Shown here in pieces: positions 8,988 through 43,700 of a DNA stretch of 64,000 bases (the stretch's first letter is position 1; the number at the start of each line of letters is the position of its first letter). The stretch is from Tautonia plasticadhaerens (GTDB lineage Bacteria; Planctomycetota; Planctomycetia; Isosphaerales; Isosphaeraceae), in NCBI RefSeq assembly GCF_007752535.1, contig NZ_CP036426.1, forward strand, positions 6,138,001 through 6,202,000, written 5' to 3'. Both the position numbers and the translations under genes were made by a program. The notes under the pieces are model-generated. The model was not told where the DNA came from and made no database searches. It saw nothing but the letters and a program-made list of their open reading frames with translations.

Positions 8988-9231
8988 CCTGAACGATCCC
9001 TTCGGGTGAATCGGTCCTCGCCCGGGGGCCCGGTCGGGCCGATCCGCGTCAGGCGAATCGGCCAGTCTATCAGGAATGCCGCGGCGACGGAGGGCCAGAA
9101 TCGCGTTTTGTGTTCAGGATCCCCCGGCCCGATTCGCCTGGGACCCTGTCGCGTCCCCGGGACATTGCGGCTAGATTCAGGGCGTCCTTCCCCCTTCGAA
9201 CCCACACCACGATCGAGCTGCGAGGGAATCC

Positions 9232-24145: not shown

Positions 24146-24249
24146 GAGCGACCCCCTTTTCCCGGCCGGGTTCTACCGATCGCGCCCGATCGGCACCGGC
24201 CCGTCCTCGAATGACACCTCGGACCCAAGACCCGCACCCTCGATCCGGC

Positions 24250-24924
24250 TTAACCGCTTCGCTTGAGGACCTCGACCGATCCGTCTTCCTGCTGCACGAG
24301 CACCATCCCGGCCATACCCAGGAACAGGCCGGTCTCGACGACTCCGGGGATCGCCCGGATCCGCCCATCCAGCTCCCGGGGATGCTCGGCGACTGAGGCC
24401 AGGTCGATGTCCAGCGTGTAATTGCCGTTGTCGGTAGGGACGGGCTGCCCCTCCCGCAATCGCAGCTCGCAGCTCAGCCCCATCCTCACCAACCTGCGGC
24501 GGACCAAGGGCAGTCCGAAGGGCACGACCTCGACCGGGAGCGTCGTGCAATAGCCCGTCCCCAAACGTCCCGTCAGCTTCTCCTGGCCGACGAGGATGAC
24601 GAGTTCCTTCGAATACGAGGCGACGATCTTCTCGCGGAGCAATGCACCGCCCAGCCCCTTGATCAGGTCCAGCCCGGGGTCGACCGCGTCGGCACCGTCG
24701 AAGGTCGCGTCGATCGCGTCGACGTCGTCCAGTCCGAGGAGCGGGATCCCGAACTCGCGGGCGAGGGCCTCCGTCGCACGCGAGGTGGCGATCCCCCGGA
24801 CGTCCAGCCCTCCCCGGACGTGCTGGCCCAGCAGCCGGACGAAGTCCGACGCGGCGTGCCCGGTCCCGAGCCCGATGACCGAGCCGTCCGATACCAGTTC
24901 TAACGCCTTCTCCGCGATCGTCAC
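24250..24924 (-). CDS. rpiA: Ribose-5-phosphate isomerase A
   Basis: RpiA interconverts ribulose 5-phosphate and ribose 5-phosphate. The 224-residue length is normal. The phosphate loop reads GLGTGHAASDFVRLL (GTG-H-A rather than the common GTGSTA). The catalytic segments DATFDGADAVDP and KGLGGALLREKIVA are intact, and the C-terminus has GNYTLDIDL and ETGLFLGMA. It lies between tkt (89 bp upstream) and gnd (104 bp downstream), giving a compact pentose-phosphate group. The spacing is loose enough for internal promoters, but none is obvious. Confidence 0.95.
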   Translation of the reverse strand: MTIAEKALELVSDGSVIGLGTGHAASDFVRLLGQHVRGGLDVRGIATSRATEALAREFGIPLLGLDDVDAIDATFDGADAVDPGLDLIKGLGGALLREKIVASYSKELVILVGQEKLTGRLGTGYCTTLPVEVVPFGLPLVRRRLVRMGLSCELRLREGQPVPTDNGNYTLDIDLASVAEHPRELDGRIRAIPGVVETGLFLGMAGMVLVQQEDGSVEVLKRSG

Positions 24925-25013
24925 GATCGGGCCCTTTCCTGATCCGGGCGGGGAGGAGGTCGTTGCTCGCCCGGCCCCGTACGAATTCGATTCTCCCCCG
25001 GCGACGACCCGGA

Positions 25014-27098
25014 TCAGGATGACGCCCCGGGGCCCCGGGAAACGAGTTCCTTCGCCCTGGAGACGAGGTTATCGACCGTGAAGCCGAATTTCTTCTGGAG
25101 TTCCTTCAGCGGGGCCGAGGCGCCGAAGGTCTGCATCCCGATCATGTGCCCTCGAGGGCCGACGTAGCGCTCCCAACCGAAGGTCGCCGCCTGTTCGACC
25201 GAGATCCGGGCGGTGAGATGCGGCGGCAGGACCTGCTCCCGGTACGAGGGGTCCTGGTGTTCGAACAGCTCCCAGCAGGGCATGCTCACGACCCGGGCCG
25301 GGACCCCCTCGGCCGAGAGCCGCTCGAAGGCCGAGGCGCAGAGCGGCACCTCGCTCCCGCTGGCCATTAGGATCACCTCCGGCTCGACGCCCGGTGGCGG
25401 ATCGGCCAGCACGTAGGCCCCCCGGGATAATCCGGACGCCGGGGCGTACTTCGATCGGTCCAAGGTCGGCACGTTCTGGCGGGTGAGCACCAGGCAGGCG
25501 GGCTCCCGCTTCAGCCGCATGATGAATCGCCAGGCCTCGACGACCTCGTTGGCGTCCCCCGGCCGGATCGTGAACATGTTCGGCACGGCCCGGAGCGACG
25601 CGAGCTGCTCGATCGGCTGGTGGGTCGGCCCGTCCTCGCCGACCCCGATCGAGTCGTGGGTGAAGACGTAGATGACCGGGATCTCCATCAGCGCCGCCAG
25701 GCGGATCGCCGGGCGGGAGAAGTCGCTGAAGATGAAGAAGCCCGAGCCGTAGGGCCGGACCTTCGACAGGGCCATTCCGTTGAGGCAGGCCCCCATCCCC
25801 AGCTCCCGGACGCCGAAGTGCAGGTTCCGGCCCTCGTAGGAATCGGCCTGGAAATCGCCCGCCTCCGGGGACTCGATCCGGGTCTTGGTCGACGGCGTCA
25901 GGTCGGCCGACCCGCCGATGAACCAGGGGACGTTCTTCGCGACCGCGTTGAGCACCTTCGACGACGCCTCCCGGCCCGCCTGACCCTTCTCGTCGGCCGG
26001 GAAGCTCGGCAGGTCTCGGTCCCAGCCGTCGGGCAACTCCCGGCGCTGCATCCGGTCGAGCTGGTCGGCCAGCTCCGGATGCCTCGCCTTGTACTCTTCG
26101 AACTTGACGTACCAGGCATCCCGCAACGACCTCCCGCGACGGCCGATCCCACCCTGGAAATGCTCGTAGACCCCCTCGGGGACGTGGAATGGCTCCGGGG
26201 AGAGGCCGAACCGCCGCTTGAAGTCGGCGATCACCTCCTCTCCCAACGGCTCGCCGTGGGCGGTGTGCGAACCCTCCTTGGCGGTCCCGTAGCCGATGTG
26301 GCTGTCGACGATGATTAAGGTCGGCCGATGCTTCTCGTCCTTGAAGGTGTGGAACGCCCGGGCGAGCATCTGCAGGTCGTTGGCGTCGCCGACCCGGGTG
26401 ACATTCCACCCCGCGCCGATGAACCGGGTGGCCACATCGTCGCTGAAGGCCAGGTCCGTCGAGCCCTCGATGGTGATCCGGTTGTTGTCGTAAATCCAGC
26501 AGAGGTTGGAGAGCTTGAGGTGCCCGGCGAGGCTGGCCGCCTCGGAGCTGGCCCCCTCCATCATGCAGCCGTCCCCGGCGATCGCGTAGACGTCGTAGTC
26601 GAACATCGGGAACTCGGGGCGGTTATAGTGGGCCGCCATCCACTTGCCCGCGACCGCCATGCCGACGCTCGTGGCGACCCCCTGCCCCAGCGGGCCGGTG
26701 GTCGTCTCCACCCCGGAGGTCCAGCGGTATTCCGGGTGGCCCGGGCACTTGCTGTCGAGCTGACGGAACTTCTTGATCGAGTCCAGGGGGACCGACGGCT
26801 CGCCGAGGATCTCGTACTCTGGGTCGACCGCCCGGACCCCGGTCAGGTGCAAGAGCGAGTAGAGCAGCATCGAGGCGTGCCCGGCCGAAAGGACGAATCG
26901 ATCCCGGTTCGGCCAGATCGGGTCGGCAGGGTCGAAGCGGAGGAACCCCTGCCAGAGCGCATAGGCGACCGGGGCGAGCGCGACCGGGGTCCCCGGGTGC
27001 CCGGAGTTCGCCGCCTGCACCGCATCCATCGAGAGGGTCCGGATGGTGTTGATGCAGCGCAGGTCGAGGTCGGCCTCGTTCTCGGTCGCGACGCTCAT
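25014..27098 (-). CDS. tkt: Transketolase
   Basis: Transketolase moves two-carbon units between sugar phosphates using thiamine diphosphate. I chose the ATG at 27096-27098 (MSVATENEAD), giving 694 residues, a normal length; the frame is open 70 codons further upstream but that part lacks family resemblance. Key motifs are SGHPGTPVALAP, RFVLSAGHASMLLYSLLHL, the ThDP/metal motif GDGCMMEGASSEAASLAGHL ending in DNNRITIEG, and the transketolase signature GVGEDGPTHQPIEQLASLR. It is the first gene of the tkt-rpiA-gnd group and starts 175 bp after the cytochrome gene on the same strand. Confidence 0.96.
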   Translation of the reverse strand: MSVATENEADLDLRCINTIRTLSMDAVQAANSGHPGTPVALAPVAYALWQGFLRFDPADPIWPNRDRFVLSAGHASMLLYSLLHLTGVRAVDPEYEILGEPSVPLDSIKKFRQLDSKCPGHPEYRWTSGVETTTGPLGQGVATSVGMAVAGKWMAAHYNRPEFPMFDYDVYAIAGDGCMMEGASSEAASLAGHLKLSNLCWIYDNNRITIEGSTDLAFSDDVATRFIGAGWNVTRVGDANDLQMLARAFHTFKDEKHRPTLIIVDSHIGYGTAKEGSHTAHGEPLGEEVIADFKRRFGLSPEPFHVPEGVYEHFQGGIGRRGRSLRDAWYVKFEEYKARHPELADQLDRMQRRELPDGWDRDLPSFPADEKGQAGREASSKVLNAVAKNVPWFIGGSADLTPSTKTRIESPEAGDFQADSYEGRNLHFGVRELGMGACLNGMALSKVRPYGSGFFIFSDFSRPAIRLAALMEIPVIYVFTHDSIGVGEDGPTHQPIEQLASLRAVPNMFTIRPGDANEVVEAWRFIMRLKREPACLVLTRQNVPTLDRSKYAPASGLSRGAYVLADPPPGVEPEVILMASGSEVPLCASAFERLSAEGVPARVVSMPCWELFEHQDPSYREQVLPPHLTARISVEQAATFGWERYVGPRGHMIGMQTFGASAPLKELQKKFGFTVDNLVSRAKELVSRGPGASS

Positions 27099-27273
27099 CG
27101 TGGCGGCTCTCCGGTGTGTCCGAACCCCGATTCCCGGCGCAATGGTCCCCGGGGGGGCGTTCGATCCACCAAAGAGATAATCCCGGTCGGCGAGGAAGGC
27201 AAGGACCTGGGACGGGCGATCCCGCCCACATCGGCGGCCAGGCCGCGAATCGCCGCCCGTTTGCCCAGCCGGT

Positions 27274-28836
27274 TTAGCGGGGCCGACCTCGATTCTCGAT
27301 CGGCACATTTTCCCCGCCTTCGAGACCGTCCTCCGCCTCCAGCAGCCGATCCATCAATCCATCAAACGCCTCGAGGATCGGGCCCGCTCGATCGGACCTG
27401 GGCGACGGCTCTTCCCGGGATCCGGGGCCGATGTGCGTCTCCTCGGGGAATTCGAGCGCGTCACCCACCTCTCGGATCGCCTGGAAGACGCCCTGGAGCC
27501 GTGTGACGTCCCCCGGGCGGGGCCGACCGGCTCGCAGCAGGGCATCCGCCTCGGACCCCGCCAATGCCCGGCACGCGAGGAAAAACTGTGCCGCGCCGTC
27601 CCGGTTCGAGATGATTCCATCGAGCTGACCGGGATCCTCGGCGAGAGAGGCGATCAGGTCGCGGAGGTCGTCCCGATCATACTCCGATCCTTCGAGGGCG
27701 GAGAGTCGCCCCCCCACGCTCCTGGCAAGCCGTTCGGCCTGCTCCGCGACCCGATCCCGATCCGGATAAGGTTCCCGCATCAGTCGATCGACTGCATCGA
27801 CGGGGCCAATCAGTCTCAGCTCGGTCTGACCGACCAGGGCCCGGCTCATCGGTAACGACCACGACGCCCAGGCCGGCGTACCGGGGATCTCATCCCCCCG
27901 GAAATTCCGGAGCCCCTCGTCGAGCAGGGAGTGATGACAGGAGTCACACGAGTACTCCGAAAACTCTGGCCAGGGCGACGCGTCCGGTCCGTCGGGAGGT
28001 CCGGAGACCCTCCCGGAGAGCACCTCCAGTCCCGCCCGCAGGGTGGCCAACTGGCCGATCGCCCAGTCCCGGACGAGGTCCCCGCTCGGGAGGCCGAGCT
28101 CGACCCGGGAGCCGTCGGCGGCCCGCTCGTCCCAATGCCTGGGCATCCGTTGCATATGGGACACGAGTTCGAACCTGAGGCGGGGATGCCCGGCCGCAAT
28201 CAGGTCGTGATTCACCGCTTGCCCCGGCCCCGATCCGAGATGGCACCTGAGGCAGACTGCAGCCCGATCGGCCGTCGAACCCAGGGATCGCATCGAGTCG
28301 GTCGCCTCGGGATATTGCTCGGGCCAACCCTCCCGGTAGTGAAGATCGACCCATCGCCCCGCTGCGCCATGGCAATCCTCGCAAGACACCCCGCTCGGGC
28401 CGATGGCCAGGCCGATCGGTCCGGTCGCATTGCAATCGATCGGGCCGAGCGACTTGACCAGATCGGGGGCATCGGCGCCGCCATGGCACCCCAGGCAGGT
28501 CGGATCCTCGTAGGGTGCCGTGCTGCGATGGAGATTGCGACGGATGGACTCGGATCGGCAGTCGAAGAGCGTGAGGAACGCGTCCGAATGGGGATCGAGG
28601 CTCGCCCAGGTGTGAAATTCGCTCCCCCCGGTGCCCCGGGGGGCGACCTTCCCGTGGCATCCCCTCCCCGAGCAGGACGCGGCGCCGACCCTCGCGGATC
28701 CGATTCCGATCTCGGATTCGGCGTCGACCGAGGGGGTGGACGGCCGGGTCGGCCGGTCATCGGCATCGATCCAGGCCGCCGCGACGAGAAGCGCCGGGGC
28801 CAGCAAGAGGAAAATCCGCGGGGGCCATCCGATCAT
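27274..28836 (-). CDS. Five-site multiheme c-type cytochrome
   Basis: From the ATG at 28834-28836 this is a 520-residue exported protein with a signal peptide (PPRIFLLLAPALLVAAAWI). It has four CXXCH heme sites (CLGCH, CEDCH, CLRCH, CDSCH) and one expanded CX4CH site (CSGRGCH), all in the N-terminal 340 residues. The C-terminal 180 residues are helical, heme-free and acidic. The arrangement matches planctomycete multiheme cytochrome c family proteins of unknown specificity, related to the cytochrome c554 group. It is divergent from the cytochrome b/decaheme/NuoEF operon at 29299 and shares the intergenic region with it, suggesting a common redox role. Confidence 0.88.
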   Translation of the reverse strand: MIGWPPRIFLLLAPALLVAAAWIDADDRPTRPSTPSVDAESEIGIGSARVGAASCSGRGCHGKVAPRGTGGSEFHTWASLDPHSDAFLTLFDCRSESIRRNLHRSTAPYEDPTCLGCHGGADAPDLVKSLGPIDCNATGPIGLAIGPSGVSCEDCHGAAGRWVDLHYREGWPEQYPEATDSMRSLGSTADRAAVCLRCHLGSGPGQAVNHDLIAAGHPRLRFELVSHMQRMPRHWDERAADGSRVELGLPSGDLVRDWAIGQLATLRAGLEVLSGRVSGPPDGPDASPWPEFSEYSCDSCHHSLLDEGLRNFRGDEIPGTPAWASWSLPMSRALVGQTELRLIGPVDAVDRLMREPYPDRDRVAEQAERLARSVGGRLSALEGSEYDRDDLRDLIASLAEDPGQLDGIISNRDGAAQFFLACRALAGSEADALLRAGRPRPGDVTRLQGVFQAIREVGDALEFPEETHIGPGSREEPSPRSDRAGPILEAFDGLMDRLLEAEDGLEGGENVPIENRGRPR

Positions 28837-29298
28837 TTCGGATCCTCTCCCTTCGCCGGGAGTGGCGTGCCGGAGGCGTCGAGGAGGAGGGTCGAGTCTG
28901 CGCTCCCCGGAGACCTGGATTACCATGCCACTGACGATCCGACTTCGCAAGCGACCGGCTCTTGACCGGGAAACCGGCGCCGGCCGGGGGGCAAACGGCA
29001 CCTGATTGACAGGCATACCTAAGCGATGCTAGGACATTCCTTGATCGACCGAACTCCCGACCCACCTCAGGAGAGGTCTCCGTCCCGTGTTCTCGGATGT
29101 GCCCGAGGTGCGACGCCGCCCTCAGCCGGCGATCCCCGTCGTCGCACCGATCGAGTTGACCCGGCCGATTGAGGCCCGGTTCGAGCGGGCCCGGTCCCTC
29201 GAGGGCGGCGAATCGCGGACGCGGTGACGGAGCCCGGGGCATGGCTTCGCGCCCGATCATCCCCCTCACGAGGCACTCTTGGACGTGGAGACGCGGTC
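28837..29298. other. Divergent intergenic region between cytochrome gene sets
   Basis: About 460 bp separate the divergent pentaheme and cytochrome b starts. A perfect TTGACA (29006-29011) on the plus strand is followed after 18 bases by TAGGAC (29030-29035), a weak -10, so plus-strand transcription may begin near 29040. In-frame GTG codons at 29224 and 29299 compete as the next gene's start. No conserved gene is seen inside. Confidence 0.4.
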
Positions 29299-30273
29299 GT
29301 GCTCCTGAATTGGAAATTCACGGAACAGCAACTCCCCTGGCTGATCCTGGCCCTGGGGATCCTCCTCGGCCTCGGCGGCTGGTTCGTGATCGAACGTCTC
29401 GGCCGCCCGGAATGGCCGGGAGGCAGCACCGCTGTCGGGCTGACGCTGGGAATCGTCGGCGGCCTGCTCATCCTCTTCGAGTTCCTCCTCTGGCCCCGAA
29501 AGAAGAAGCGAACCTGGAGGGTCGGCCGGGTCCGAATTTGGATGGCCGGGCACATCTGGCTCGGACTTCTTTCCCTGCCTCTTCTTATTCTCCATAGCGG
29601 CTTCCGTCTCGGGGGATCGCTCAGCACGATCCTGATGGCGCTGCTCCTCATCGTCGTCCTCAGCGGCATTTGGGGGCTGGTGTTCCAGCAGATCCTCCCC
29701 CGGAAGATGATGGACGAGGTCCCGACCGAGACGATCTACTCCCAGATCGACCGGATCGGTCAAATGACACGGCATGAGGCGTGGAGGCTGGTCGAGGCGA
29801 CGTGCGGCCCCTCCGACGACGAGGCTCGAGGATTCGCGGACGTGGACCAGGACGAAAGGGAAGAGGCCCCTCCCTATCTCGTCGTCGGGGCCTTGCGGAC
29901 CGCCGGCCGATTGCAGGGGAACGTCCTCCAGACGAGCGTCCCCTCGGCCCCCGTGCCCGGGTCCGAGCCACTCCGCGTGTTTTACCTCGATGAGGTCCTG
30001 CCGTTCCTTGAGCGGGGGAGCCGATCGGGCTCGCCTCTGTCGCAACGGCATCGGGCCGAGGCAATGTTCCTGGACCTGAAGACCCAACTCGACCCGAGGA
30101 CCTATCCTGCGATTGACGCCCTCGCCGGGGCCTGTGAGCAACGCCGCCAGCATGATCTACAGTCGAGGATGCACGTCTGGCTGCACGTTTGGCTCCTGGT
30201 CCACCTGCCGGCTTCGATCGCATTGGTGATCCTGATGTTCGTTCACGGTTACGTCGCCATCAAATACTGGTAG
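29299..30273 (+). CDS. Cytochrome b-like membrane protein of the multiheme operon
   Basis: The GTG at 29299 is preceded by GGAG at 29287-29290 and gives 324 residues; a GTG at 29224 would add 25 residues without a clear ribosome site. Hydrophobic helices lie at about residues 10-28, 45-62, 83-99, 103-125 and 298-318. Histidines are set in the helices: GHIWLGLLSLPLLILHSGF, and the C-terminal MHVWLHVWLLVHLP with MFVHGYVAIKYW. This is the pattern of a b-type heme protein that exchanges electrons with quinone. A soluble domain of about 170 residues separates the fourth and fifth helices and is unrecognised. The decaheme gene starts 8 bp after the stop, so they form one operon. Confidence 0.8.
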   Translation: MLLNWKFTEQQLPWLILALGILLGLGGWFVIERLGRPEWPGGSTAVGLTLGIVGGLLILFEFLLWPRKKKRTWRVGRVRIWMAGHIWLGLLSLPLLILHSGFRLGGSLSTILMALLLIVVLSGIWGLVFQQILPRKMMDEVPTETIYSQIDRIGQMTRHEAWRLVEATCGPSDDEARGFADVDQDEREEAPPYLVVGALRTAGRLQGNVLQTSVPSAPVPGSEPLRVFYLDEVLPFLERGSRSGSPLSQRHRAEAMFLDLKTQLDPRTYPAIDALAGACEQRRQHDLQSRMHVWLHVWLLVHLPASIALVILMFVHGYVAIKYW

Positions 30274-30281
30274 GGGGAGCC

Positions 30282-32015
30282 ATGCCGGACGCCTCGACGC
30301 CCAGGGGCCCGTCCCCTCGCCGGCCTTCCGGCAAGCAGCGGGCCGTCCGGGTGCCACTCGATTATTACAAGTCGAGAGACCCGCTGGGCCGTTGGCGGCT
30401 GCTGCTGGTGGTGTTCGCCCCGATCGTTTCGCTGGGCTGGTGGTTCGGCGACCAACTGCACCGGGGAAGCCGGTCCGAGATCCGGGCCTCACACGGGCCG
30501 GTCTGGGCCGGGCACGCGATCTGGGAGCACGACTGCGAGTCCTGCCACGTCCCCTTCGAGCCGATCAAGTCCGACGCCGCGTTCGCCCCCCGGGGCTCCT
30601 CCCGCCTCTCAGGCTCCGACCGACGCTGCTCGACCTGCCACGCCGGGCCGATCCATCACGCCAACCAACTCCCCGGGAAGACCGAATCGTGCGGAGGCTG
30701 CCACAGGGACCACCGCGGAAGAGAGGTCGACCTGACCCGGGTCCCCGACTCGCAGTGCACGCTCTGCCACTCGGACCTCCCGCACGCGATCGCGGGCAAC
30801 CCACCCGCCGTACCTCGTGACTCCCCGAGCGTGACCCGGTTTGACCTCGACCACCCCGACTTCGCGATTCGAGCTGCCTCGACGGATGGCCTGGGGGCGG
30901 TCGTGGGGCGCCTTTCGGATGAAGGCCCACCCGTCCTCGACCCGTCGAACCTCAAGTTCAATCACGCGATTCACCTGGAGGCCGGAATCGATTGCGGCTT
31001 CACGTTCGCTGACCTCGGGTCGGAGGACCGTCCCTGGTTCGGCTGGACGACGAGCACGCCGATCGAGGCGAAGGTGACGCTCGACTGCGCCTCCTGTCAC
31101 CTCCTGGACGCCGGCGATCGGCCGGCCGGTCCGGCCTCGGCGGTCTCGCCGGGGCCGCCCCGTACCACGGGGGACTACTACGCTCCGATTTCGTACGAGG
31201 CCCACTGCCGAGCCTGCCACCCCTTGACGATCGGCGTCCCCGACGCGGGTGACGTACCGATCGACGTCCCGCATGGCATGCAGCCCTCGGAACTCCGGAT
31301 CGTCCTGGAACGGACGTTCGCGGCCGAGGCCCTCGACCACAGACCCTCGCGCCGCGATCGCACGATCGGCGGGACCGGGGCGGAGAGTCCAGGGCGATCT
31401 GACCGGCAGACCCTAGAACTACTCCGTGACCTGCGCTCGTACGAGGAGGCGCGAATCCCCGGGGCCCGAGTCAGTCGCCCGACCGTCGGGGACGAGATCC
31501 AGGAGAATGTCGAAGACGCCGAGGGGACCCTCTACCTCGGGAAGCAGACCTGCTCCGAGTGCCATTCCTACGAGGCCCCCAGGGGGCCTGATCCGTCCGG
31601 GTGGACGGTCGCCCCGACCCGCATTCCCGAGATCTGGTTCTCCCATGCGCGTTTCTCCCACTCCGCCCACCGGGCCGTCTCCTGCGACCAGTGCCACAAC
31701 GGGGTCACGAGGTCTTCGACGAGCGATGACGTGCTGATGCCCCCGATCTCGACCTGTCGATCGTGCCATGCCCCGCCCGACGACCTGCATGGCACCCCCC
31801 TGAGGGGGGGGGCGCGGTTCGATTGCGTCGAATGTCACCGCTATCACAATGGGGAGAGCCCCCTCCAGGGCATCGGTGCCCTTGCCCGGCAGGTCGACCT
31901 GCCGGGGCGGCGGACGGTGGAGGAATTCCTCCGGGGTTCCGCGGGCCGATCCGCATCCGGCGGGCCTCGGGACGATCCGGGTGCCGATCGAGGTGGCACG
32001 ACCCGCCCGAAGTGA
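30282..32015 (+). CDS. Decaheme c-type cytochrome, membrane-anchored
   Basis: The ATG at 30282 behind GGGGGAG gives 577 residues. One hydrophobic helix near residues 41-56 (LLLVVFAPIVSLGWWFG) follows a basic N-terminal tail, so the bulk is anchored in the periplasm. Ten CXXCH sites are visible in order: CESCH, CSTCH, CGGCH, CTLCH, CASCH, CRACH, CSECH, CDQCH, CRSCH and CVECH. Histidines spaced between them (for example NHAIH, HSAHR) can supply distal ligands. The cysteine-rich N-terminal third resembles cytochrome c3/class III-like multiheme proteins. It sits between the cytochrome b-like gene and a NuoEF fusion and is the likely periplasmic wire of this complex. Confidence 0.92.
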   Translation: MPDASTPRGPSPRRPSGKQRAVRVPLDYYKSRDPLGRWRLLLVVFAPIVSLGWWFGDQLHRGSRSEIRASHGPVWAGHAIWEHDCESCHVPFEPIKSDAAFAPRGSSRLSGSDRRCSTCHAGPIHHANQLPGKTESCGGCHRDHRGREVDLTRVPDSQCTLCHSDLPHAIAGNPPAVPRDSPSVTRFDLDHPDFAIRAASTDGLGAVVGRLSDEGPPVLDPSNLKFNHAIHLEAGIDCGFTFADLGSEDRPWFGWTTSTPIEAKVTLDCASCHLLDAGDRPAGPASAVSPGPPRTTGDYYAPISYEAHCRACHPLTIGVPDAGDVPIDVPHGMQPSELRIVLERTFAAEALDHRPSRRDRTIGGTGAESPGRSDRQTLELLRDLRSYEEARIPGARVSRPTVGDEIQENVEDAEGTLYLGKQTCSECHSYEAPRGPDPSGWTVAPTRIPEIWFSHARFSHSAHRAVSCDQCHNGVTRSSTSDDVLMPPISTCRSCHAPPDDLHGTPLRGGARFDCVECHRYHNGESPLQGIGALARQVDLPGRRTVEEFLRGSAGRSASGGPRDDPGADRGGTTRPK

Positions 32016-32052
32016 CCAGGATCCAAGGCGACCCCGACCAACGTCTAGACCC

Positions 32053-33831
32053 ATGATCGTTCAGGAACTCAACGCCCTGCAGCAGCGATGCGGATTCCTC
32101 CCCGACGAGGAGCTTCGGGCGCTTTCCCGGCGGATCGACGTGCCGCTCCATCGTTTGCACGAGGTCGCCAGCTTCTTCCCGCATTACAGATTGAAGAAGG
32201 GGCCCGAGGTTGAGGTCCGGGTCTGCCGGGACGTCTCCTGCCACCTCCGAGGGGCCGAGCAGCTCAGGGATGGGGTCAAGGCCCTCGCCAACGAGATCGA
32301 CCCGACCGGGAAGGTGGTCGAGGTCGAGGGGGTCTCCTGCCTCGGGCAGTGCGACCATGCCCCGGCTGTCACCGTCAACGACCGCGTCGACCACGGCCTG
32401 TCCGAGCAGGACCTCCGGTCTCGGGTCCACGAGGCGGTCTCGCGGGAGCCTCCGCGCCATCGGCGGGCCGACCGCGGGCCGCTCGGCTGGAAGATCGACC
32501 CCTACGACGGAAATCCCCGCGACGAGGCCGTCCGGAAGTTGGTCGAGACCCGAGACCCGCGGACCGGATCCCTCTCGGGGGGGATCGACGACCTGCTCGA
32601 ACAGCTCAAGATCTCGACCCTCCGAGGCATGGGGGGGGCCCGGTTCCCGACGCACCTCAAGTGGGCCGCCGTCCGCGCCCAGGCCTCGGACGTCAAATAT
32701 GTCGTCTGCAACGGTGACGAGAGCGAGCCCGGCACCTTCAAGGACCGGGAGTTACTCCGGAGGGCCCCGCACCTCCTCGTCGAGGGGATGGTCCTCGCCG
32801 GGCTGACCGGCGGTGCAACAAAAGGTTACATCTACATTCGCCACGAGTACCACGAGGAGATCGAGGCGGTCGAGGACGCGATCCGGGAGGCCACGGCCCG
32901 CGGCGCCTGCGGGACGGACATCCTCGGGTCGGGCCTCTCCTTCCCGGTCGAGGTCTTCGTCAGCCCCGGCGGTTACATCTGCGGCGAGGAGAGCGCCCTG
33001 CTGGAGGCGATGGAGGACCGCCGCGCCGAGCCCCGCAACAAGCCCCCCTTCCCCACCGTCGCGGGCCTGTTCAACAAGCCGACGATCATCAATAACGTCG
33101 AGACGTTGATGTGGACCCCCTCGATCTATCTCAAGGGTGGGGAGTGGTACCGCGACCAGGGGATCAACGCGTGCAAGGGGCTCTGGTTCTGCTCGATCTC
33201 CGGGGACGTCCGGGCGCCCGGCGTCTATGAAGTCCCGTTCGGCGTCACCGTTCGCGACCTGATTTATCGCCGAGCCGGCGGCATGAGCCGGGGTCAGCGG
33301 CTCAGGGCGGTCGCACCCTCGGGGCCTTCGGGGGGCCTCTTCCCGCCCCTGATCCGACGTGACCTCCTCCCGGAGGCCTTCGCCAAGGCCCACCTCCCGG
33401 ACGCTGGGGCCTTCTTCGATCTCCTCGACCTGCCGCTCGACCCCGACATCGTCCGCGGCATGGGGGGCATGCTCGGCGCGGCATTCGTGGCCGTCGGGGA
33501 GCACGCGGATCTGGTCGGGCTGGCCCTGAACCTCTCGGAATTCTTCCGCAACGAGTCATGCGGCAAGTGCGTCCCGTGCCGGGTCGGATCCCAGAAGCTC
33601 GTCGAGATGATCCGGGCCCTCAGGGCGGGTCAGTTCGACCGGGAGCACCTGGAGCTCGCGCGGTCGCTCGGAAATACGATGATCCTGACCTCGATCTGCG
33701 GCCTAGGCCAGGTGGCGCCGAACCCCCTACTCACGCTGGCGAAATACTTCCCGGAGGAGATCGAGGCCCTCCTCGACCGCCGGGGAGGCCCGCCCGCCCG
33801 CGAGTTCTCGATGTTTGAAACGATCGTCTGA
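32053..33831 (+). CDS. Fused NuoE-NuoF NAD(H)-binding flavoprotein
   Basis: This 592-residue protein joins a thioredoxin-like [2Fe-2S] NuoE domain (1-130) to a NuoF domain (155-590). The NuoE cluster has four cysteines: Cys58, Cys63, Cys96 and Cys100. NuoF has the FMN/NADH segments RGMGGARFPTHLKW (191-204) and NGDESEPGTFKDR, then the [4Fe-4S] ligands Cys503, Cys506, Cys509 and Cys549. The nucleotide loop differs from the GRGGAGFPTG of true complex I, as in soluble hydrogenase and formate dehydrogenase diaphorases. It is cytoplasmic and 13 bp upstream of the Fe-S/cNMP fusion. It probably passes electrons between NAD(H) and that subunit. Confidence 0.93.
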   Translation: MIVQELNALQQRCGFLPDEELRALSRRIDVPLHRLHEVASFFPHYRLKKGPEVEVRVCRDVSCHLRGAEQLRDGVKALANEIDPTGKVVEVEGVSCLGQCDHAPAVTVNDRVDHGLSEQDLRSRVHEAVSREPPRHRRADRGPLGWKIDPYDGNPRDEAVRKLVETRDPRTGSLSGGIDDLLEQLKISTLRGMGGARFPTHLKWAAVRAQASDVKYVVCNGDESEPGTFKDRELLRRAPHLLVEGMVLAGLTGGATKGYIYIRHEYHEEIEAVEDAIREATARGACGTDILGSGLSFPVEVFVSPGGYICGEESALLEAMEDRRAEPRNKPPFPTVAGLFNKPTIINNVETLMWTPSIYLKGGEWYRDQGINACKGLWFCSISGDVRAPGVYEVPFGVTVRDLIYRRAGGMSRGQRLRAVAPSGPSGGLFPPLIRRDLLPEAFAKAHLPDAGAFFDLLDLPLDPDIVRGMGGMLGAAFVAVGEHADLVGLALNLSEFFRNESCGKCVPCRVGSQKLVEMIRALRAGQFDREHLELARSLGNTMILTSICGLGQVAPNPLLTLAKYFPEEIEALLDRRGGPPAREFSMFETIV

Positions 33832-33844
33832 GGGACACCCCCCG

Positions 33845-36157
33845 ATGAACCCGGCCCACGGCAGCGTCAATCGCCCCGTCTCCCTGACCATCGACGGCCG
33901 CCAGGTAACCGTGCCGGAGGGGACCACCATCTTCGACGCCGCCACCCGGGCTTTCGTCCGACAGGCCGGCGACCACAACCCGATCCCAATCCTCTGTCAC
34001 CGGGAGCACATGACCCCGGTCGCCGTCTGCCGGGTCTGCACGGTGGACGTGAGCGTCAACGGCCGCCAGGAGTTCCGCCTCGCCCCCGCTTGCCAGCGGG
34101 AGGTCGCCGACGGTATGGAGGTCCGGACCCACGAGGCGAGCGATCGGGTCAGGGATGCGGTCAAGATGCTGATCGAACTCCTGCTGGCGGACTACCCCGA
34201 CCCCGAGGCCGCTCGGGCCTCCCGCCTCACCAAGCAGGGCCAGGCCCGGGGAGAGGGGAACGACGAGCTGATCGAATTGGCCGAGCGCCTCGACGTGAAG
34301 GCCCCCCGCTTCTTCCGGTCCAGGAGGGAGCGGCCGGTCGACGAGTCCTCCATGGTCATCGCCGTCGACCACAACGCCTGCATCCTCTGCGACCGATGCA
34401 TCCGGGCCTGCAACGACGTCCGGGAGAACCACGTCATCGGCCGGACCGGCAAGGGCTACCGGTCCCGGATCGCCTTCGACCTGGACGACCCGATGGGAGA
34501 CTCTTCCTGCGTCGCCTGCGGCGAATGCATGATTTCCTGCCCCACCGGGGCTCTCCTGAGCAAGCACAACGTCCTCACCCGTCCCCCCTCCGGCACGGTC
34601 ACGACCGAGGAACTGGCGGCCCATCCACTCTTCGCCGGGGTCTCCCGGGCGTTCCTCGACTTCAACGAAGGTGCCGTCGTCCGCAAGCGCTTCAAGAAAG
34701 GAGACGTTGTCTGCAGGGAGGGTGACTACGACGCCACCGCCTTCTACATCGAAGACGGCGAGGTCGAGATCTTCATCGGTTCGCCCTTCAAGCACGTGAA
34801 GGACCAGCGCGGGCTCAACTCCTGGAACCCGTTCGCACGGGTGAGGAAAAGCTCGCTGGCGGGCCGCGGGGAGGACCGCCGGGACGACGAGCAGGAAGTC
34901 GAGTACATCTCCATCGATGCCCCGGTCGTGCTGCGCTACGACAAACCCGTCGCGACGATGGGCGAGGGCGCCATCTTCGGCGAGATGGCCTGCATGAGCT
35001 CCTACCCCCGGTCGGCGACCGTCGTCGCCCAGACCGAGTGTACGCTCCTGGAACTCGGCCGGAACGTCCTGTACATCCTCCAGCGTGGGAAATTCTCCAA
35101 GGCCCAGCTCGACGACCGTTACCGGCAGAACGCCCTGGACAACCACCTCCGGGGGGCCTCCGTCTTCGCCAGGGTGGCCAGGAACGAGGACGAGTTCAAG
35201 AAACTCGTCGAGTTCCTCCGCCCCCGGGTCGACCTCGTCCGGGTGAACAATGGCGAGGTCATCTTCCGCCAGGGGGATCCGGCCGACGCCTACTACCTCA
35301 TCCGGATCGGCTTCGTGAAGGTCTCCCAGGGGAGGCCCGGGGGCGAGTTCGTCCTCAGCTACCTCGGCCCCGGCAAGTCATTCGGCGAGATCGGCCTGAT
35401 GGGCCACATCCCCGACATCCGGGAACTCGCGCCGCCCGGCATCCGGACGGCGACCTGCACCGCCCTGGACCACGTCGACCTGGTGAGGATCAAGGGTGAG
35501 GACTTCCGGCTGCTCCTGGAGCAATTCCCCGGCGTCCGGAAGTCGTTCGTCGAGTACGCGGTCACGATCCTGAAGCAGAACGAGCAGATGATCCGCCGGA
35601 TCAACGAGGACTCGCTCGGCGACTTCTTGCAGCAGGGCCTCATGAACGCCCAGAGCGTCCTGGTGCTCGACCTGGAGAAGTGCACCCGGTGCGACGAGTG
35701 CACCAAGGCGTGCGCCGACTCGCACGGGGGCGTCACCCGACTGATCCGGGAGGGGCTCCGCTTCGACAAATTCCTGGTGGCTAGCTCCTGCCGATCGTGC
35801 CTCGACCCCTATTGCATGGTCGGCTGCCCGGTGAACTCGATCCGGCGGCGCGGGTCGCTGGAGATCATCATCGAGGACTGGTGCATCGGCTGCGGCAAAT
35901 GCGCCGAGAATTGCCCGTACGGGAACATCAACATGCACCCGTTCCCCACCGGACAGGCGGTGATCGACGACCGGACGGGCCGGAGGGTCCCCGTGCTCCA
36001 GCAAAAGGCGACGACCTGCGACCTCTGCCGGGAGCTGGACGGCCAGCCGAGCTGCGTGTATGCCTGCCCGCACGACGCCGCCCACCGGATGAAGGGCAGC
36101 GACCTGGCCCGGGAGATCGGCATCGTCGTCTCCCCGCCCTCGATCCGATCGACTTGA
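33845..36157 (+). CDS. NuoG-like Fe-S / double cyclic-nucleotide-binding / DmsB-like ferredoxin fusion
   Basis: This 770-residue protein starts at the ATG at 33845. Order of parts: plant-type [2Fe-2S] domain (Cys51, Cys62, Cys65, Cys83); a NuoG/HydA-like segment with two [4Fe-4S] sites (CILCDRCIRAC and CVACGECMISC, about 178-240); a first cyclic-nucleotide-binding domain (about 275-425; FGEMACMSSYPRSATVVA); a second (about 445-575; FGEIGLMGHIPD); and a C-terminal four-cluster module (CTRCDECTKAC, CRSCLDPYCMVGC, CIGCGKCAENC, CDLC...CVYAC, about 615-750) like DmsB/NrfC. There is no DNA-binding helix-turn-helix. It can carry up to seven Fe-S clusters. I infer an electron-transfer subunit whose activity is tuned by a bound nucleotide. 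Confidence 0.9.
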   Translation: MNPAHGSVNRPVSLTIDGRQVTVPEGTTIFDAATRAFVRQAGDHNPIPILCHREHMTPVAVCRVCTVDVSVNGRQEFRLAPACQREVADGMEVRTHEASDRVRDAVKMLIELLLADYPDPEAARASRLTKQGQARGEGNDELIELAERLDVKAPRFFRSRRERPVDESSMVIAVDHNACILCDRCIRACNDVRENHVIGRTGKGYRSRIAFDLDDPMGDSSCVACGECMISCPTGALLSKHNVLTRPPSGTVTTEELAAHPLFAGVSRAFLDFNEGAVVRKRFKKGDVVCREGDYDATAFYIEDGEVEIFIGSPFKHVKDQRGLNSWNPFARVRKSSLAGRGEDRRDDEQEVEYISIDAPVVLRYDKPVATMGEGAIFGEMACMSSYPRSATVVAQTECTLLELGRNVLYILQRGKFSKAQLDDRYRQNALDNHLRGASVFARVARNEDEFKKLVEFLRPRVDLVRVNNGEVIFRQGDPADAYYLIRIGFVKVSQGRPGGEFVLSYLGPGKSFGEIGLMGHIPDIRELAPPGIRTATCTALDHVDLVRIKGEDFRLLLEQFPGVRKSFVEYAVTILKQNEQMIRRINEDSLGDFLQQGLMNAQSVLVLDLEKCTRCDECTKACADSHGGVTRLIREGLRFDKFLVASSCRSCLDPYCMVGCPVNSIRRRGSLEIIIEDWCIGCGKCAENCPYGNINMHPFPTGQAVIDDRTGRRVPVLQQKATTCDLCRELDGQPSCVYACPHDAAHRMKGSDLAREIGIVVSPPSIRST

Positions 36158-37209: not shown

Positions 37210-37752
37210 TCCCGCCCCCCATCGGCACTGCCCCCCTGCCCGTCCCCACCGCGTCCGCCTCCCGAACCCCCGGCCCGACCGAGTTGACTCCGGTCCCCTG
37301 CGTCGCACACTCCACTTCGAACCGTGGCCCAGGGATCCCCAGCCGACGGGATTATCTCGCGACTCCCCCCCTGCGATCCGACCTCTTCCGGAAATCCCAC
37401 GGACCGGGACTTGACTCGCCCTGGACAAGACACGATGATTGGGTGAGTGCATGGAAACCAAGCCGTCTCACTGCACCGACCGTACCAATTGTCCCCACCG
37501 ACCCGGGGCGTCCCGAAGCTCGGGGCCCCTTGCGGTCGATCAATTGGACTGATTGGCGCTTGGGACGAATCCTACGCGCGCCGGGTCGCCGGCCGAGGCC
37601 GGGCGGACCATTCGGGATCAAAGGGGTCCGATCGCTTCAGAGTCTCCGAGCATTCCCCCGGGAGTAGCTCCCCGCCCGTCGCGGGGCCCGTCGGCTGATC
37701 GAGCACGCCGGACGGACGAGTGGGGGGCGGGATCATTTCGAGGAGTCGTTCG
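37210..37752. other. Intergenic region upstream of the giant surface protein gene
   Basis: About 540 bp. I see no gene and no convincing promoter. Small inverted repeats around 37505-37530 (CCGGGGCG / GGGGCCCC context) are not clearly above background for this GC content. The start of the next gene is fixed by AGGAG at 37741-37745. Confidence 0.4.
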
Positions 37753-40700
37753 ATGGGCAGCTTCAAGGGTGACAGTCGGAAGCCGGGCCGGGATCGTCGA
37801 CGCCCCTCCGGTGGCCACACCGGCAAGGCCCGGGGGCCGGAGCCGCTCGAGGAGCGGACGCTGATGAACGGCGATCCGGTGCTCGCGCAATTCGAGGCGC
37901 GGCCGATCGTCTTCGGCTCCCCGGACCTGGACGTCGACCGGGTCAAGAACGGGCCCCTGGCCAAGGCCGGCCAGCACCTGGCCCATCTGGACATCGCCTT
38001 CCGGGAGGGGAACGACTTCGATCGGGTGCTGGCGGAGGCCAAGCGGGTCTTCATCTTCCGCGGCGAGAAGGTCGGGATCGACCTCTACGGAACCGGCGAC
38101 TTCGCGACCCTGGAGAAGACCCTCCGCTCCTTCGACATGGAGGTCGTCGCCACCGACGCCTCGATCGGGCTCGTCGAGGGCTACATCCCGATCTCCCGGA
38201 TCCGGGACCTGGCCGACTACGGCGCCGTCCGCAGCTTCCAGGCCATCTACCGGCCGATCGTCCGCCAGCAGGGCTCGGCCGCCAACCAGGGCGACCAGAC
38301 GCTCCTCGCCGACCAGGCCCGCACCCAGTTCAACGTCGACGGCAGCGGCGTGACCGTGGGCGTCCTCTCGGACACGGTCAACCAGCTCAACGGCGGCCTG
38401 GCCGACTCGATCGCCAGCGGCGACCTGCCCTCCGGCATCAACGTCCTCCAGGACGGGGCCGCCGGCGGCAGCGACGAGGGCCGGGCGATGCTGGAGCTGA
38501 TCCACGACATCGCCCCAGGCGCGAGCCTCGCCTACCACACCGCCGAGGGGGGCCCCGCGGCCTTCGGCGACGGCATCCGGGCCCTCTCCCGGCAGGCCGG
38601 GGCCGACATCATCGTCGACGACATCGGCTACCTCAACGAGCCGGTCTTCCAGGACGGCCTGGTCGGGCGGGCCGTGGTCGACGTGGTCACCAACGACGGC
38701 CGGTCCTACTTCAGCGCCGCCGGCAACGACGGCGACGCCGGATACGAGTCCAACGTCCGGGTCGCGACCGGGACCGTCGGCCAGGTCGGGGCCGGCAACT
38801 TCCACGACTTCGACCCCGGCGCCGGCGTCCAGACGACCATCGACATCACGGTCGCCGACGCCGGGATCAACCTCGGCCTCTGGTGGGACGACCCCTGGTT
38901 CTCCGGCGCCGCCGACTCGGACCTCGACCTCTTCGTCCTGGATCCGGCCAACGGGAACATCGTCGCCCAGGCGGTGACGAACAACATCGGCAGCGCGACG
39001 CCCCAGGAGATCATCCCGCAGATCAACCCGGGCAACTACCAGGTCGCGATCCGGTACTCGAACGGCCCGGCCCCGGCCCGGGTCCGCTTCCAGGACCTCG
39101 GCGGCGGCGACCTCCAGACCGACAAGTCGTTCGGGAGCGCCGGGACGACGACTTACCCGACCACCTTCGCCCACCCGACCTCCCCGTCGGCCATCGGCGT
39201 GGGCGCCGTCTTCTACGGCGCGGCGCCACCCGTGGTCAATCCCCCGGCCATCCCGAGCGAGGCCTTTACCTCCGCAGGGCCGGTCATCTATTTCTTCGAT
39301 CCCAACGGCAACCGACTCCCCGGCCCTCAGCTCCTGATGAAGCCGGACGTCTCCGGGCCGGACGGGGTCAACACGAGCTTCTTCGGCTCTCCCGACGTCG
39401 AGACGCCTCCCGACGGCTTCCCAAATTTCTACGGGACCTCGGCCGCGGCGCCGAACGTCGCCGCCGTGGCGGCCCTGATGAAGCAGCTCAACCCCGCGTC
39501 GGGCCCCGAGGAGATCCGCGACTCGCTGATCGTCTCGGCGACCCCGCTCAACGGGGCCTCGCCCGGCGAGTACAACGTCCGGGGCGGCTTCGGCCTGGTC
39601 AACGCGGTGGGGGCCCTGACGGCGGTCGACCAGCTCCGTGTCGTCTCCTCGACCCCGGCCGACGTGGCCACGCTCGGCTCGGTCCCGTCGTTCATCGAAC
39701 TGAACCTCTCCAAGCCGGTCGACCCGGCCTCGGTGCAGTCCGGCGACCTGACCTTCCCGGTCCTCCCTCCCGGGGTGTCGGTGATCGTCGGGGCCCCGAC
39801 GCTGGTCGACTCGATGACCGTCCGCTTCCCGGTGCAGATCGAGACGAGTTCCCCCGACGCCGAGGTCAATGGGATCTACGCCTTCGAGGTCGCCGACGCG
39901 GCCTTCACGGGGACCGACGCGAGCCCGCTCGTCGGCCTCCGACGCGCCTTCACCGTCTCCGACGTGGGCGCCCCCCAGGTGACGAACACCATCTTCCTGG
40001 GGAGGATCGTCGTCGTCGAGTTCAGCGAGGCGATGCGCGGCTCGACGATCACCAAGGACCACCTCATGCTCGTCCGCACCGGCGGCACGGGCGAGTTCGG
40101 CCGGTCCGAGAACGTCATCGTCACCAATGACGAGCGCGCGATCCTCTTCTACGACGCGCCGAATAACCGGGCGATCTTCGACCTCCGCAACCTGCCGCAA
40201 TCCTCCCTGCCGTCGGACGTGTATGCGTTGGTCGTCCGGGACCAGGTGCGAGACGCCGCGGGCGTCCAGCTCGACGGCAACTTCAGCGGACAGTTCCCCT
40301 CGGGAGACGGCCAGGCGGGCGGCGACTTCGCCCAGTTCCTCGGCGGGCGGTTCGCGGCGGCCTCCCAGATCGTCGGCTTCGGGCTCGACGCGGCCTCCGA
40401 CACCGGGATCCCCGGGGACCGGAACACCAACCAGGTCCGGCCGACGTTCTCCGGGTTCGCCGTGGCCGAGTTCCCCTCGACCAACGCCGGGCTCCAGGTC
40501 GCGGTCCAGTTCATCCAGGAGCATCCGGCCGGCTTCGACCTGGACCTGGGCACCGGCGACCGCGGCTTCGTGGGCGAGCCGGACCTGCTGCTCACCACCG
40601 ACGAGAACGGCTTCTTCAGCTTCCCGTCGCCGTTCGACCTGGAGGACGGGTTCCACCGGGTCCGGATCGTGATCGTGGGCGAGGCGGAGTTCCCCCCGCT

Positions 40701-43700
40701 CCCCGGCAACGCGACCCGCACCGACCTGTCCTTCCGGGTCGATTCGACCAGCCCGCTGGTCACCGCCAGCTCGATCCCCTCGAACTCCCGGGTCTCGAAC
40801 CTGCGGGACATCACCCTCAACGTCGCCGACCCGGTCTCGCCGGCCGACCAGAATGATACGCTGGCGGTCCCGGTCCAGCTGGACTTCCCGGCCCTCGACC
40901 CCGAGACGGCCACCAACCTCGGCAACTACTCGCTCATCAACCTGGGCCCCGACCGCGTCCTCGGCACCGCGGATGACGTCGACCTGTCCCAGTTCATCGA
41001 GAATGCCACGTTCGTCTCGACGAACCTCCGGGGCCAGCCGACCGACCCCTACACCGGGCGGATCGAGCTGACCTTCGCCGACGGCCTCTCCTCGGGCCGA
41101 TACGCCCTGATCGCGCGGACCCAGGAAGGGGGCTTCTCGGGCATCCGGGACGCCGCCGGCAACCCGCTCGACAACGACCCCGCCCAGCCCGGGAACCAGA
41201 GCTTCGTCAACTACTTCGAGCTCCAGCCCGAAGCGGCGTTCATCACCAATTTCACCGCCTTCAGCCCCTCGGCCTTCAACCCGGGCACCACGGCGACCTC
41301 CGGCCCGAGGTCCTTCTACGAGACCCCCGTCCCCGGCTTCTCGCCCCGGGCGGAGGCGCCCCCCGAGTCGTTCTTCATCGACTTCTCCAACACCCTCGCC
41401 CCGCGCGACTATTCCGACGCGATCCAGCTGATCCGATCGGCCGATTCGGCCGCCGCGCAATCCGACGGCGACTTCGGCGTCGGCTCCGGGGGCGGATTCA
41501 GCCGGGTCGACGGCATCACCGTCGAGCTGACGAATTCCGTGCCCGGCGCGACCCTCGGGCAGCCCGGCTACCTGAACCGGCTGGTCGTCCGGGTCCCCAG
41601 CGGCCAAGTCCTCCCGGCCGACTACTACCGTGTCTTCATCCCGAACAGCGGCGACCAGGAGATTCGGGACGTCTTCGGCAACCTCGCCGACCTGGAATTC
41701 CTCGGGAACGAAACCCCGCAGGGCAGCGACTACGAAGTCTTCATGCCCGACGGGACCTACCGCGAGGGTCTGACCGGAGACGGCGTCGGCGGCGGGGCGT
41801 TCGTCACCGGGTTCGTCGTCGCCCCCGGCCAGCGGCTGGGGGCCGACGGCAGGGTCCGCGGCAACATCATTTACGCCCGGCCCGACTACGAGGACGACCC
41901 GTTCCTCACCATCGACGACCCGGATGGCAGCCGGAATCGCCCCTTCCCCACCCTGCTGCCCGACGCCCAGCCGAACCTCTTCAACGGCGGAGACCTGAAC
42001 TCCCCCGCCAACTTCGGGACCGGCTTCAACCCGGCCTTCGACCGCAACGGCAACGGCGTCTTCGACCGCTCCGCCTTCTTCGAGGCCGACCAGGTCCGAT
42101 CGGACGGCCCGGTCGTCATCGTCGCCCTGCCGGGCACCCGTCGGCCGATCCCGGGTACGACCGAGACCACCCAGGAGACCTTCGTCATCTCCCCGCCGGC
42201 CGGGGCCGACCCGACCCGGGCCGAGAACAACGCCAGCGGCTCGGTCCCCGAGCAGACCACCCTGGCCTTCCAGCCGGGCTCGACGCTGAAGCTGTTCAAC
42301 GCCTCGCTGTTCGTCCAGAACCAGGGCTCGGCCCTGCAGCTCCGGGGCGGCTCCACCGCCGCCGACCAGGTCGTCTTCACCTCGCTGCTCGACGACTCCT
42401 TCGGCGGCGACACCAACAACGACGGCGGCGACACCACCGCCGGCGGCGGCAACTGGGGCGGCATCGTCTTCCGCAACTACGACGACGTCTCCAACGGCCG
42501 CGACCAGCTCCCCGGCTCCTTCCCGGTCGACGGCAAGCTCGGCCTCTCGGGCGCATCGGACGTGATGTCGTTCATCAACAAGGCGATCGTCCGCTTCGGC
42601 GGCGGGGCCGTGCCGCAGACCATCGGCGAGCGGTTCGACTCGATCACCCTGTTCAACAGCCGCCCCGACATCACCAACACCATCATCGCCGACAGCGCCG
42701 CCGCGGGCGGGGCCGGCGGAACCCAGGCGGCCATCTCGGCCGACTTCGACTCGCTCCGGGAGGACGAGATCGCACGCGGGCCGCTGGTCCGCCGGACCGA
42801 GTTCCGCAACAACTCGATCAACGGTCTGCTTATCCGGCCCCAGGTGGGCATCTTCCAGGCCCAGGAGACCGACGCGATCTTCTACGCCCCCAACGCCCCG
42901 GCGGAGGGTGCCAACAAGAACTTCGTGATCGACGACCCGGTCCCCTACGTCCTGGCCTCGCAGTTGGTGCTCGGCCAGCGGCTACTCCAGACGACCGGCG
43001 GCGCCACCGACCAGTCGGTCTCCAACCGCCTGTACGTCCAGCCCGGCATGATGGTCAAGTTCCGGCCCGGGGCGAACATCGCACTGCTGACCGACGACTC
43101 GAGCATCAACATCGGCGACCGGACCTACATCCGCCAGTTCGACGCCGACCCGAATATCTCCCCCGAGGACCCGAACTTCGCCCCCAATGACGTCGGGGAC
43201 GCCAAGCCCCTCTTCACGTCCCTCTTCGACGACGACGCGGAGACCTTCTTCCTCGACCAGACCACCGGGGTCCGGCGCACCATCGTCCCCGCCGGTTCCA
43301 CCGACAACCAGGCCGGGAACGCCGAACCCGCCCAGGGCAACGTGCCCTTCGACCTCCGCTGGGGAAACCTCTCGGTCAATCCCGGAGCCCGGGCGGTCAT
43401 CGATGAGGCCGAATTCCGATACGGTGGCGGGAATATCGCCAGCCCGACCGGAACCCTCGAGTCTCGAAACGTCCTCGACCTGAGCGACGACAGCGCCCAG
43501 ATTTCCACCGACTTCTCCCTCGGGGGCGGCTCGGGGGCGTACGTCTCGGTCACCAACAACGACTTCTTCGACAACTACGACGCCCCGATGGTCGTCGAGC
43601 CGGACCAACTGCTCGCCACCGACCCGCTCCGGCCGCTCCTCTCCGGCAACCCGTTCATCCGCGGCAACCTTCTGCTGCGGAACGACGTCAACGGCCTGTT

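Follow-up and report, generated by a model that had tools for sequence, protein, structure and literature searches.

The window analyzed here, a stretch of 64,000 nucleotides from the 9.4 Mb genome of Tautonia plasticadhaerens (G000:C1:6138001-6202000), carries an operon of four genes, P1 to P4, encoding a cytochrome b-like membrane protein, a decaheme c-type cytochrome, a NuoE-NuoF fusion protein and an iron–sulfur (Fe-S) protein that also contains two cyclic-nucleotide-binding (cNMP) domains. On balance, the sequences point to the operon probably encoding a quinone-independent electron conduit of the inner membrane, connecting NAD(H) with the periplasm and featuring a built-in second-messenger switch. 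The co-occurrence of the four genes is far beyond chance, since the set recurs with differing gene orders in several phyla, and the conserved unit is modular, as a core consisting of the cNMP-FeS protein, the cytochrome b-like protein and the decaheme cytochrome exists without NuoEF.

A preliminary description of this DNA, made from the sequence alone, had proposed a path from cytoplasmic NAD(H) through a membrane b heme to a periplasmic wire, or the reverse. Its layout of an NAD(H) input, a b-type membrane protein and a periplasmic multiheme cytochrome withstood the analysis. The electron flow itself is only inferred, however, and neither the cNMP domains nor the modular nature of the conserved unit had been recognized. 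The earlier interpretation is thus strengthened and partly supported, yet unproven.

Sequence features of the four proteins

All four open reading frames (ORFs) are located on the plus strand and are separated by gaps of 8, 37 and 13 bp (P1/P2, P2/P3 and P3/P4, respectively), so that the coordinates, order, strand and spacing given in the preliminary description could be reproduced (Table 1). The same applies to its account of ten CXXCH motifs in P2, to the NuoE-NuoF fusion, as deduced from Pfam domains and conserved cluster cysteines of P3, and to the seven clusters of P4, for which cysteine motifs of one [2Fe-2S] and six [4Fe-4S] clusters were found. Scanning for promoters and terminators gave no signal above that of shuffled sequences.

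Table 1. Positions of the operon genes, the domains of P4 and the divergent cytochrome gene P5 in the window (aa, amino acids)
Feature	Description	Position in window	Strand	Basis
P1	Cytochrome b-like integral membrane protein, 324 aa	29299..30273	+	Conserved His, hydrophobic helices
P2	Decaheme c-type cytochrome, 577 aa; N-terminal hydrophobic anchor, then 10 CXXCH	30282..32015	+	
P3	NuoE-NuoF fusion, 592 aa (FMN/NADH domain, [2Fe-2S], N3-type [4Fe-4S])	32053..33831	+	Pfam
P4	HoxU/FDH-N-like Fe-S domain, two cNMP-binding domains and HycB-like domain, 770 aa	33845..36157	+	
P4 domain 1	aa 10-243; [2Fe-2S] (C51, C62, C65, C83) and two [4Fe-4S] (C179-C189, C222-C232)	33872..34573	+	
P4 domain 2	~aa 262-430; first cyclic-nucleotide-binding domain; phosphate-binding cassette FGEMACMSSYPRSAT (aa 378-392)	34628..35134	+	
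P4 domain 3	~aa 449-588; second cyclic-nucleotide-binding domain; cassette FGE...RTAT (aa 513-537)	35189..35608	+	
P4 domain 4	~aa 600-758; HycB/HydN-like; four [4Fe-4S]	35642..36118	+	
P5	Tetraheme c-type cytochrome (4 CXXCH, weakly cytochrome c554-like), divergently transcribed	27274..28926	-	

P3 matched the Pfam domains 2Fe-2S_thioredx, Complex1_51K, SLBB and NADH_4Fe-4S far above the cut-off. The cysteines of its [2Fe-2S] cluster (C58, C63, C96 and C100) and of its N3 cluster (C503, C506, C509 and C549), as well as the glycine-rich motifs for flavin mononucleotide (FMN) and NADH, were invariant in 25 sequences. The nearest solved relative was FDH1 beta (7e5z_B, E=2e-89, P3 residues 2-568). 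By these sequence features, P3 is classified as an NADH diaphorase of the NuoEF/HoxF type. An identity as HydB-type subunit of the electron-bifurcating HydABC/Bfu enzymes was ruled out, because the protein ends just past the N3 domain and has no C-terminal Fer4/ferredoxin domain.

Regarding P4, the preliminary description accounted for the Fe-S clusters and overlooked the two domains lying between them, which were assigned to the cNMP-binding family PF00027 (E=5e-33). The four [2Fe-2S] cysteines and the eight cysteines of the two [4Fe-4S] clusters in domain 1 were invariant in 28 NADH-type homologues; in this alignment, the His-ligated NuoG/HydA cluster has no conserved counterpart, since the window sequence is devoid of the corresponding cysteines. 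Residues 12-239 were most similar to the N-terminus of FDH1 alpha (7vw6_A, E=3e-31) and also resembled that of HydA1; the match to FDH and HydA proteins covers their N-terminal domain only (aa 12-243 of P4). The C-terminus, whose closest solved structure is HycB, contains sixteen cysteines, almost all of the 80 homologues retaining them; C728 is replaced by Ser in four, and one sequence has an assembly gap.

P2 was placed by Pfam among cytochrome c7/c3-like multiheme proteins, and exactly ten CXXCH motifs were counted in 38 of the 44 called homologues, several of the remainder being truncated or split gene calls. Scores against the HmcA profile (15 bits, cut-off 400) and the TmcA profile (19 bits, cut-off 114) stayed far below the respective thresholds.

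The description of P1 as cytochrome b-like is based on five histidines invariant in 39 homologues (H85, H99, H296, H302 and H316) and on long hydrophobic helices, but not on Pfam, as the match to b561 (PF01292, E=0.041) fell below the curated cut-off. Two His pairs, H85/H99 and H302/H316, are each spaced 14 residues apart on the predicted helices 78-99 and 299-323, a pattern as expected for two bis-His hemes spanning the membrane. Applying the positive-inside rule to the basic loop 67-80, this loop would be located inside, with H85 and H302 on the cytoplasmic and H99 and H316 on the periplasmic side. A sequence search of the PDB gave no relative of P1. Its AlphaFold2 model (predicted local distance difference test, pLDDT, 88.8) did not match a cytochrome b in fold searches of the PDB with Foldseek and VIA-align, and a fold assignment was dropped, since helical-bundle look-alikes (sensor domains and ABC transporters) were the only matches.

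Conservation and modularity of the gene set

To follow the set through other organisms, genomes were scanned with P4, resulting in 57 loci whose genes were called and clustered. The closest named relative of P4 (88% identical, locus L034) is encoded by Tautonia sociabilis (Isosphaeraceae, Planctomycetota). Relatives of P1 and P2 were found beside P4 in Planctomycetota, Acidobacteriota, Rokubacteria/Methylomirabilota, Verrucomicrobiota and one deltaproteobacterial bin (Myxococcota according to the lineage given by the tool). The observed gene orders comprised P1-P2-P3-P4, P3-P4-P1-P2 and divergent halves, the set being kept though permuted. The four genes hence do co-occur in related genomes, as the preliminary description had demanded of its reading. 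Three contigs entitled Candidatus Kuenenia stuttgartiensis (L055, L059 and L062) feature a G+C content of 70-72% and almost the same set of genes as the 'Planctomycetaceae' Baikal contig L056; their organism names are doubtful.

Among 392 Planctomycetota genomes, a strong P1 match was obtained for 24, all of which (24/24) also encode the cNMP-FeS half of P4. This half was detected in 25 of the 392 genomes, the additional one (G152) having a weak P1 match right beside it; in G100 and G116, the P4 matches span the HoxU part only. P4 is an accessory trait in its family, because it is present in only 20 of 45 Isosphaeraceae genomes and absent from two of the three other members of the genus.

Many relatives of P4, including all verrucomicrobial ones found, have no HoxU domain and begin at the cNMP domains. 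The gene immediately preceding P4 on the same strand is P3 in 26 of 26 HoxU-domain loci with sufficient upstream sequence vs. none of 25 loci without this domain (Fisher p=4e-15, this and the other p-values being optimistic, as the loci are not evolutionarily independent). In a tree of the shared C-terminal part of P4, the HoxU label changes twice among 76 sequences vs. approximately 25 times in shuffles; this is a quick tree with unknown root, in which gain and loss of the domain are not distinguishable. Both forms of P4 are encoded in genome G056, one copy each. The covariation of P3 with the HoxU domain is the best evidence that P3 would feed electrons into P4 and that the core may take more than one input. 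One of the relatives without HoxU domain (L063:8861-11695) features an FHA-like N-terminus, as judged by eye, followed by a long Pro/Ala/Lys-rich linker.

The similarity of P3 and the P4 N-terminus to diaphorase parts of NAD-linked hydrogenases and formate dehydrogenases would also be explained by a degenerate enzyme of this kind that lost its catalytic subunit, and a diaphorase paralogue does exist in the same genome within a Hox-type NiFe hydrogenase set (NuoE/NuoF/HoxU-like proteins and a NiFe large subunit; L101 = G000:C1:4008001-4026000). However, the same P4 fusion with all ligands kept occurs in 42 distinct homologues of several phyla, and none of the cNMP-type neighbourhoods harbors a relative of formate dehydrogenase or the NiFe large subunit within 10 kb; formate dehydrogenase was found only in L084-L086, which are short loci of the non-cNMP type. 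In agreement with the preliminary description, the set is not linked to any catalytic gene of a hydrogenase or formate dehydrogenase. Based on this conservation and the absence of linked catalytic genes, the degenerate-enzyme explanation was rejected as having next to no probability.

Cyclic nucleotides, proposed electron path and competing explanations

The phosphate-binding cassettes of both cNMP domains are strongly conserved. E380 and R389 of the first cassette were each found in 78 of 78 aligned sequences, E515 and R534 of the second in 79 of 80 each, and the Gly-Glu pair and the Arg are near-invariant in P4 proteins both with and without the HoxU domain. Such conservation would be anticipated if the domains had retained the ability to bind a cyclic nucleotide. 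Furthermore, five loci (L040, L045, L048, L051 and L087) harbor class III nucleotide cyclases, all belonging to one family, within 10 kb of the module, compared to approximately 0.6 cyclases predicted for the 0.95 Mb of neighbourhood (Poisson p ~4e-4, calculated post hoc and for phylogenetically non-independent loci). The background was derived from ~359 matches in 119 genomes of the phylum, i.e., roughly 0.6 per Mb. On a Rokubacteria contig, the P2 gene is followed by one for a type II NADH dehydrogenase that carries its own cNMP domain at the C-terminus (L049:14805-16409).

In the model drawn from the observed genes, domains, ligand residues, conservation and linkage, the four proteins would assemble into one complex. 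P3 would exchange hydride with NAD(H) at FMN, and single electrons would travel along its clusters and enter P4 at the HoxU-like domain; the C-terminal four-cluster domain of P4 would dock on the cytoplasmic face of P1. The putative b hemes of P1, first H85/H302 and then H99/H316, would hand over electrons to the membrane-anchored decaheme P2 and thus, possibly, to other periplasmic multihemes, e.g., P5 and an LVIVD-type decaheme, the latter being present in many relatives together with a likely outer-membrane barrel. Placed between the NADH-side and the membrane-side clusters of P4, the cNMP domains would probably gate the transfer by moving the two halves when nucleotide binds. The direction from NADH to the periplasm appears more likely, e.g., to deliver electrons to multiheme acceptors in overflow or under anaerobic conditions. 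Possible rather than probable is the wider proposal that a second messenger opens and closes a direct, quinone-free route from NADH to periplasmic (in some lineages extracellular) multihemes, the same gated core taking other inputs elsewhere and the NADH module being one plug-in.

Candidates for the periplasmic steps were identified around the module. Relatives of P5 (cluster c4) are located within 10 kb in 23 neighbourhoods, so that P5 is a probable accessory periplasmic partner. A large LVIVD-repeat decaheme cytochrome (c5) and a putative barrel protein (c8) lie beside the module in several relatives' loci; of the 25 planctomycete genomes encoding the cNMP-FeS half of P4, 22 also contain c5, which occurs in 38 of all 392. 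The c8 proteins consist of 530-850 aa with a signal-like N-terminus and a C-terminal aromatic residue, gave no Pfam match and, as judged by eye, are likely outer-membrane barrels. In the window's genome, c8 and c5 are located ~60-75 kb downstream of the module.

These associations also bear on the role of the signalling domains. The complex could act as a redox or NADH sensor, electrons entering P4 altering the cNMP domains or a partner cyclase with bulk flow being minor, as might be suspected from the tandem cNMP domains, the nearby cyclases and the FHA-like N-terminus in L063. For a sensor, however, an equipment of ten c hemes, a membrane cytochrome-like protein and additional multihemes would be costly, and the linkage to the putative barrel and the LVIVD decaheme points to bulk transfer, making a sensing function very improbable.

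An NADH:quinone oxidoreductase, with P1 binding quinone and P2 representing a side branch, was considered as well, since quinones are the substrates of numerous b-type membrane subunits that have Fe-S partners of this kind, as is established for the FdnI and NarI type. Yet P2 adjoins P1 in nearly all loci and keeps its ten hemes, and the source genome already encodes complex I nearby (L103), its NuoEFG region, separate from the operon, being located at ~6.21 Mb. We therefore regard a quinone-reducing function as rather improbable.

The same complex might also run in reverse, low-potential electrons from the periplasm passing via P2 and P1 to reduce cytoplasmic NAD+. Each of its parts could in principle work both ways, accessory multihemes of the periplasm are a conserved feature of the module's surroundings, and anammox complexes combining a putative NAD(P) oxidoreductase, cytochrome b and multihemes were proposed to make NAD(P)H (PMC12954380). 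On the other hand, the neighbourhood clusters examined contained neither a quinol-bifurcating Rieske part nor a periplasmic catalytic oxidase. Moreover, the relatives include soil heterotroph lineages for which, to our knowledge, no periplasmic low-potential donor has been described. The reversed direction is accordingly held to be unlikely, although it deserves consideration.

Several observations weigh against the proposed gated conduit from NADH to the periplasm, in addition to the non-independence of the loci. P1 has neither an above-threshold family match nor a solved fold match, and for this reason its heme b content and electron role were deduced from His conservation. The predicted model of P4 is of modest confidence (pLDDT 66.8) and too weak for deducing inter-cluster distances or the effect of the cNMP domains. 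No cyclase is adjacent to the module in the window's genome, the nearest one, ~46 kb downstream, being counted as unlinked; a cyclase at another locus of the source genome is closer in sequence to the linked cyclases than the 46-kb one. Loss of ligand binding, or a change of ligand, can occur in CRP-like domains. Since electrons moving from NADH to the periplasm would dissipate membrane potential, it is not self-evident in which direction the complex works physiologically. Finally, the c5 gene of the source genome is interrupted at two places and thus split into three pieces (L116:7645-14995 = G000:C1:6243645-6250995). An insertion at L116 ~9054-10296 carries transposase-like frames and similar inverted ends, and the gene was probably broken by mobile elements. 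Introns were considered for the split gene and dismissed in view of these features of the insert examined. The outermost electron step may therefore be broken in the source strain.

Known complexes and neighbouring genes

P3 and the N-terminus of P4 resemble the diaphorase modules of FDH1/Fds-type formate dehydrogenases and HoxFU hydrogenases. Unlike these enzymes, the operon encodes no Mo/W or NiFe/FeFe catalytic domain; instead, it has two cNMP domains and a four-cluster Fe-S domain, in association with a membrane protein and a decaheme cytochrome. None of the genes for the complex I (NDH-1) membrane arm, i.e., NuoA, H and J-N, was detected in the operon or its conserved neighbourhood.

In the Hmc, Tmc, Nhc and Ohc complexes of sulfate reducers, a periplasmic multiheme cytochrome c, a membrane subunit (with b hemes in some) and a cytoplasmic Fe-S protein link both sides of the membrane; these complexes are not known to possess cNMP domains or an NADH module of the NuoEF type. 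The layout of the operon is similar to that of Hmc/Ohc-type transmembrane complexes, whereas the sequence family of P2 differs from those of HmcA and TmcA.

The anammox Rieske/cytochrome b complexes Kustd1480-1485 and Kuste4569-4574 combine a putative NAD(P) oxidoreductase facing the cytoplasm with cytochrome b and, across the membrane, a multiheme cytochrome c (PMC12954380). They possess a Rieske protein, a b6-type cytochrome b and subunit IV, whereas Pfam revealed no Rieske domain among the operon proteins. Porin-multiheme clusters of Verrucomicrobia, a phylum of the Planctomycetes-Verrucomicrobia-Chlamydiae (PVC) group, were proposed for extracellular electron transfer and consist of an octaheme cytochrome and a porin; unlike the operon, they are presented without an NADH module, cNMP domain or Fe-S subunit in the parts of the source considered here (PMC5615132). 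Members of the CbcL/MtrH/MtoC family unite a multiheme cytochrome c with a di-b-heme membrane part in a single fused protein that is thought to act on quinol (PMC6295460), and, in contrast to the operon, have no NADH module, Fe-S subunit or cNMP domain. The preliminary description had stated that the set, having no hydrogenase, formate dehydrogenase or molybdopterin catalytic subunit, does not fit those known assemblies, and had named an already described complex with the same subunits as a second finding that would speak against its reading. A search of the open-access literature yielded no description of a complex with this subunit combination.

Bacteria exporting electrons from the cytoplasm are generally thought to route them via the quinone pool, and second messengers usually act through transcription factors, kinases and channels. 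If the proposed conduit is real, the direct joining of NADH to a periplasmic decaheme would bypass the quinone pool and change electron-balance models for poorly studied soil and subsurface phyla, and a cyclic-nucleotide switch inside a redox wire would represent a new type of respiratory control. The tandem cNMP domains and the modular core, distributed across several phyla, make the operon more interesting than the preliminary description had proposed, and the small gene set together with a cultured close relative, T. sociabilis, renders the model testable.

Further genes were noted in the surroundings. Genes for proteins with HbpS-like repeats (cluster c6) occur near the module in nine loci (L046, L049, L050, L051, L053, L055, L061, L074 and L075). 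Downstream of the operon, an ORF of 3557 aa (window 37720-48393) appears to encode a very large secreted surface protein and is conserved in T. sociabilis. On the other side, pentose-phosphate genes for 6-phosphogluconate dehydrogenase, ribose-5-phosphate isomerase and transketolase are located on the minus strand beside the operon (window 23120-27308), the transketolase neighbour being found again in the loci L034, L035 and L058.

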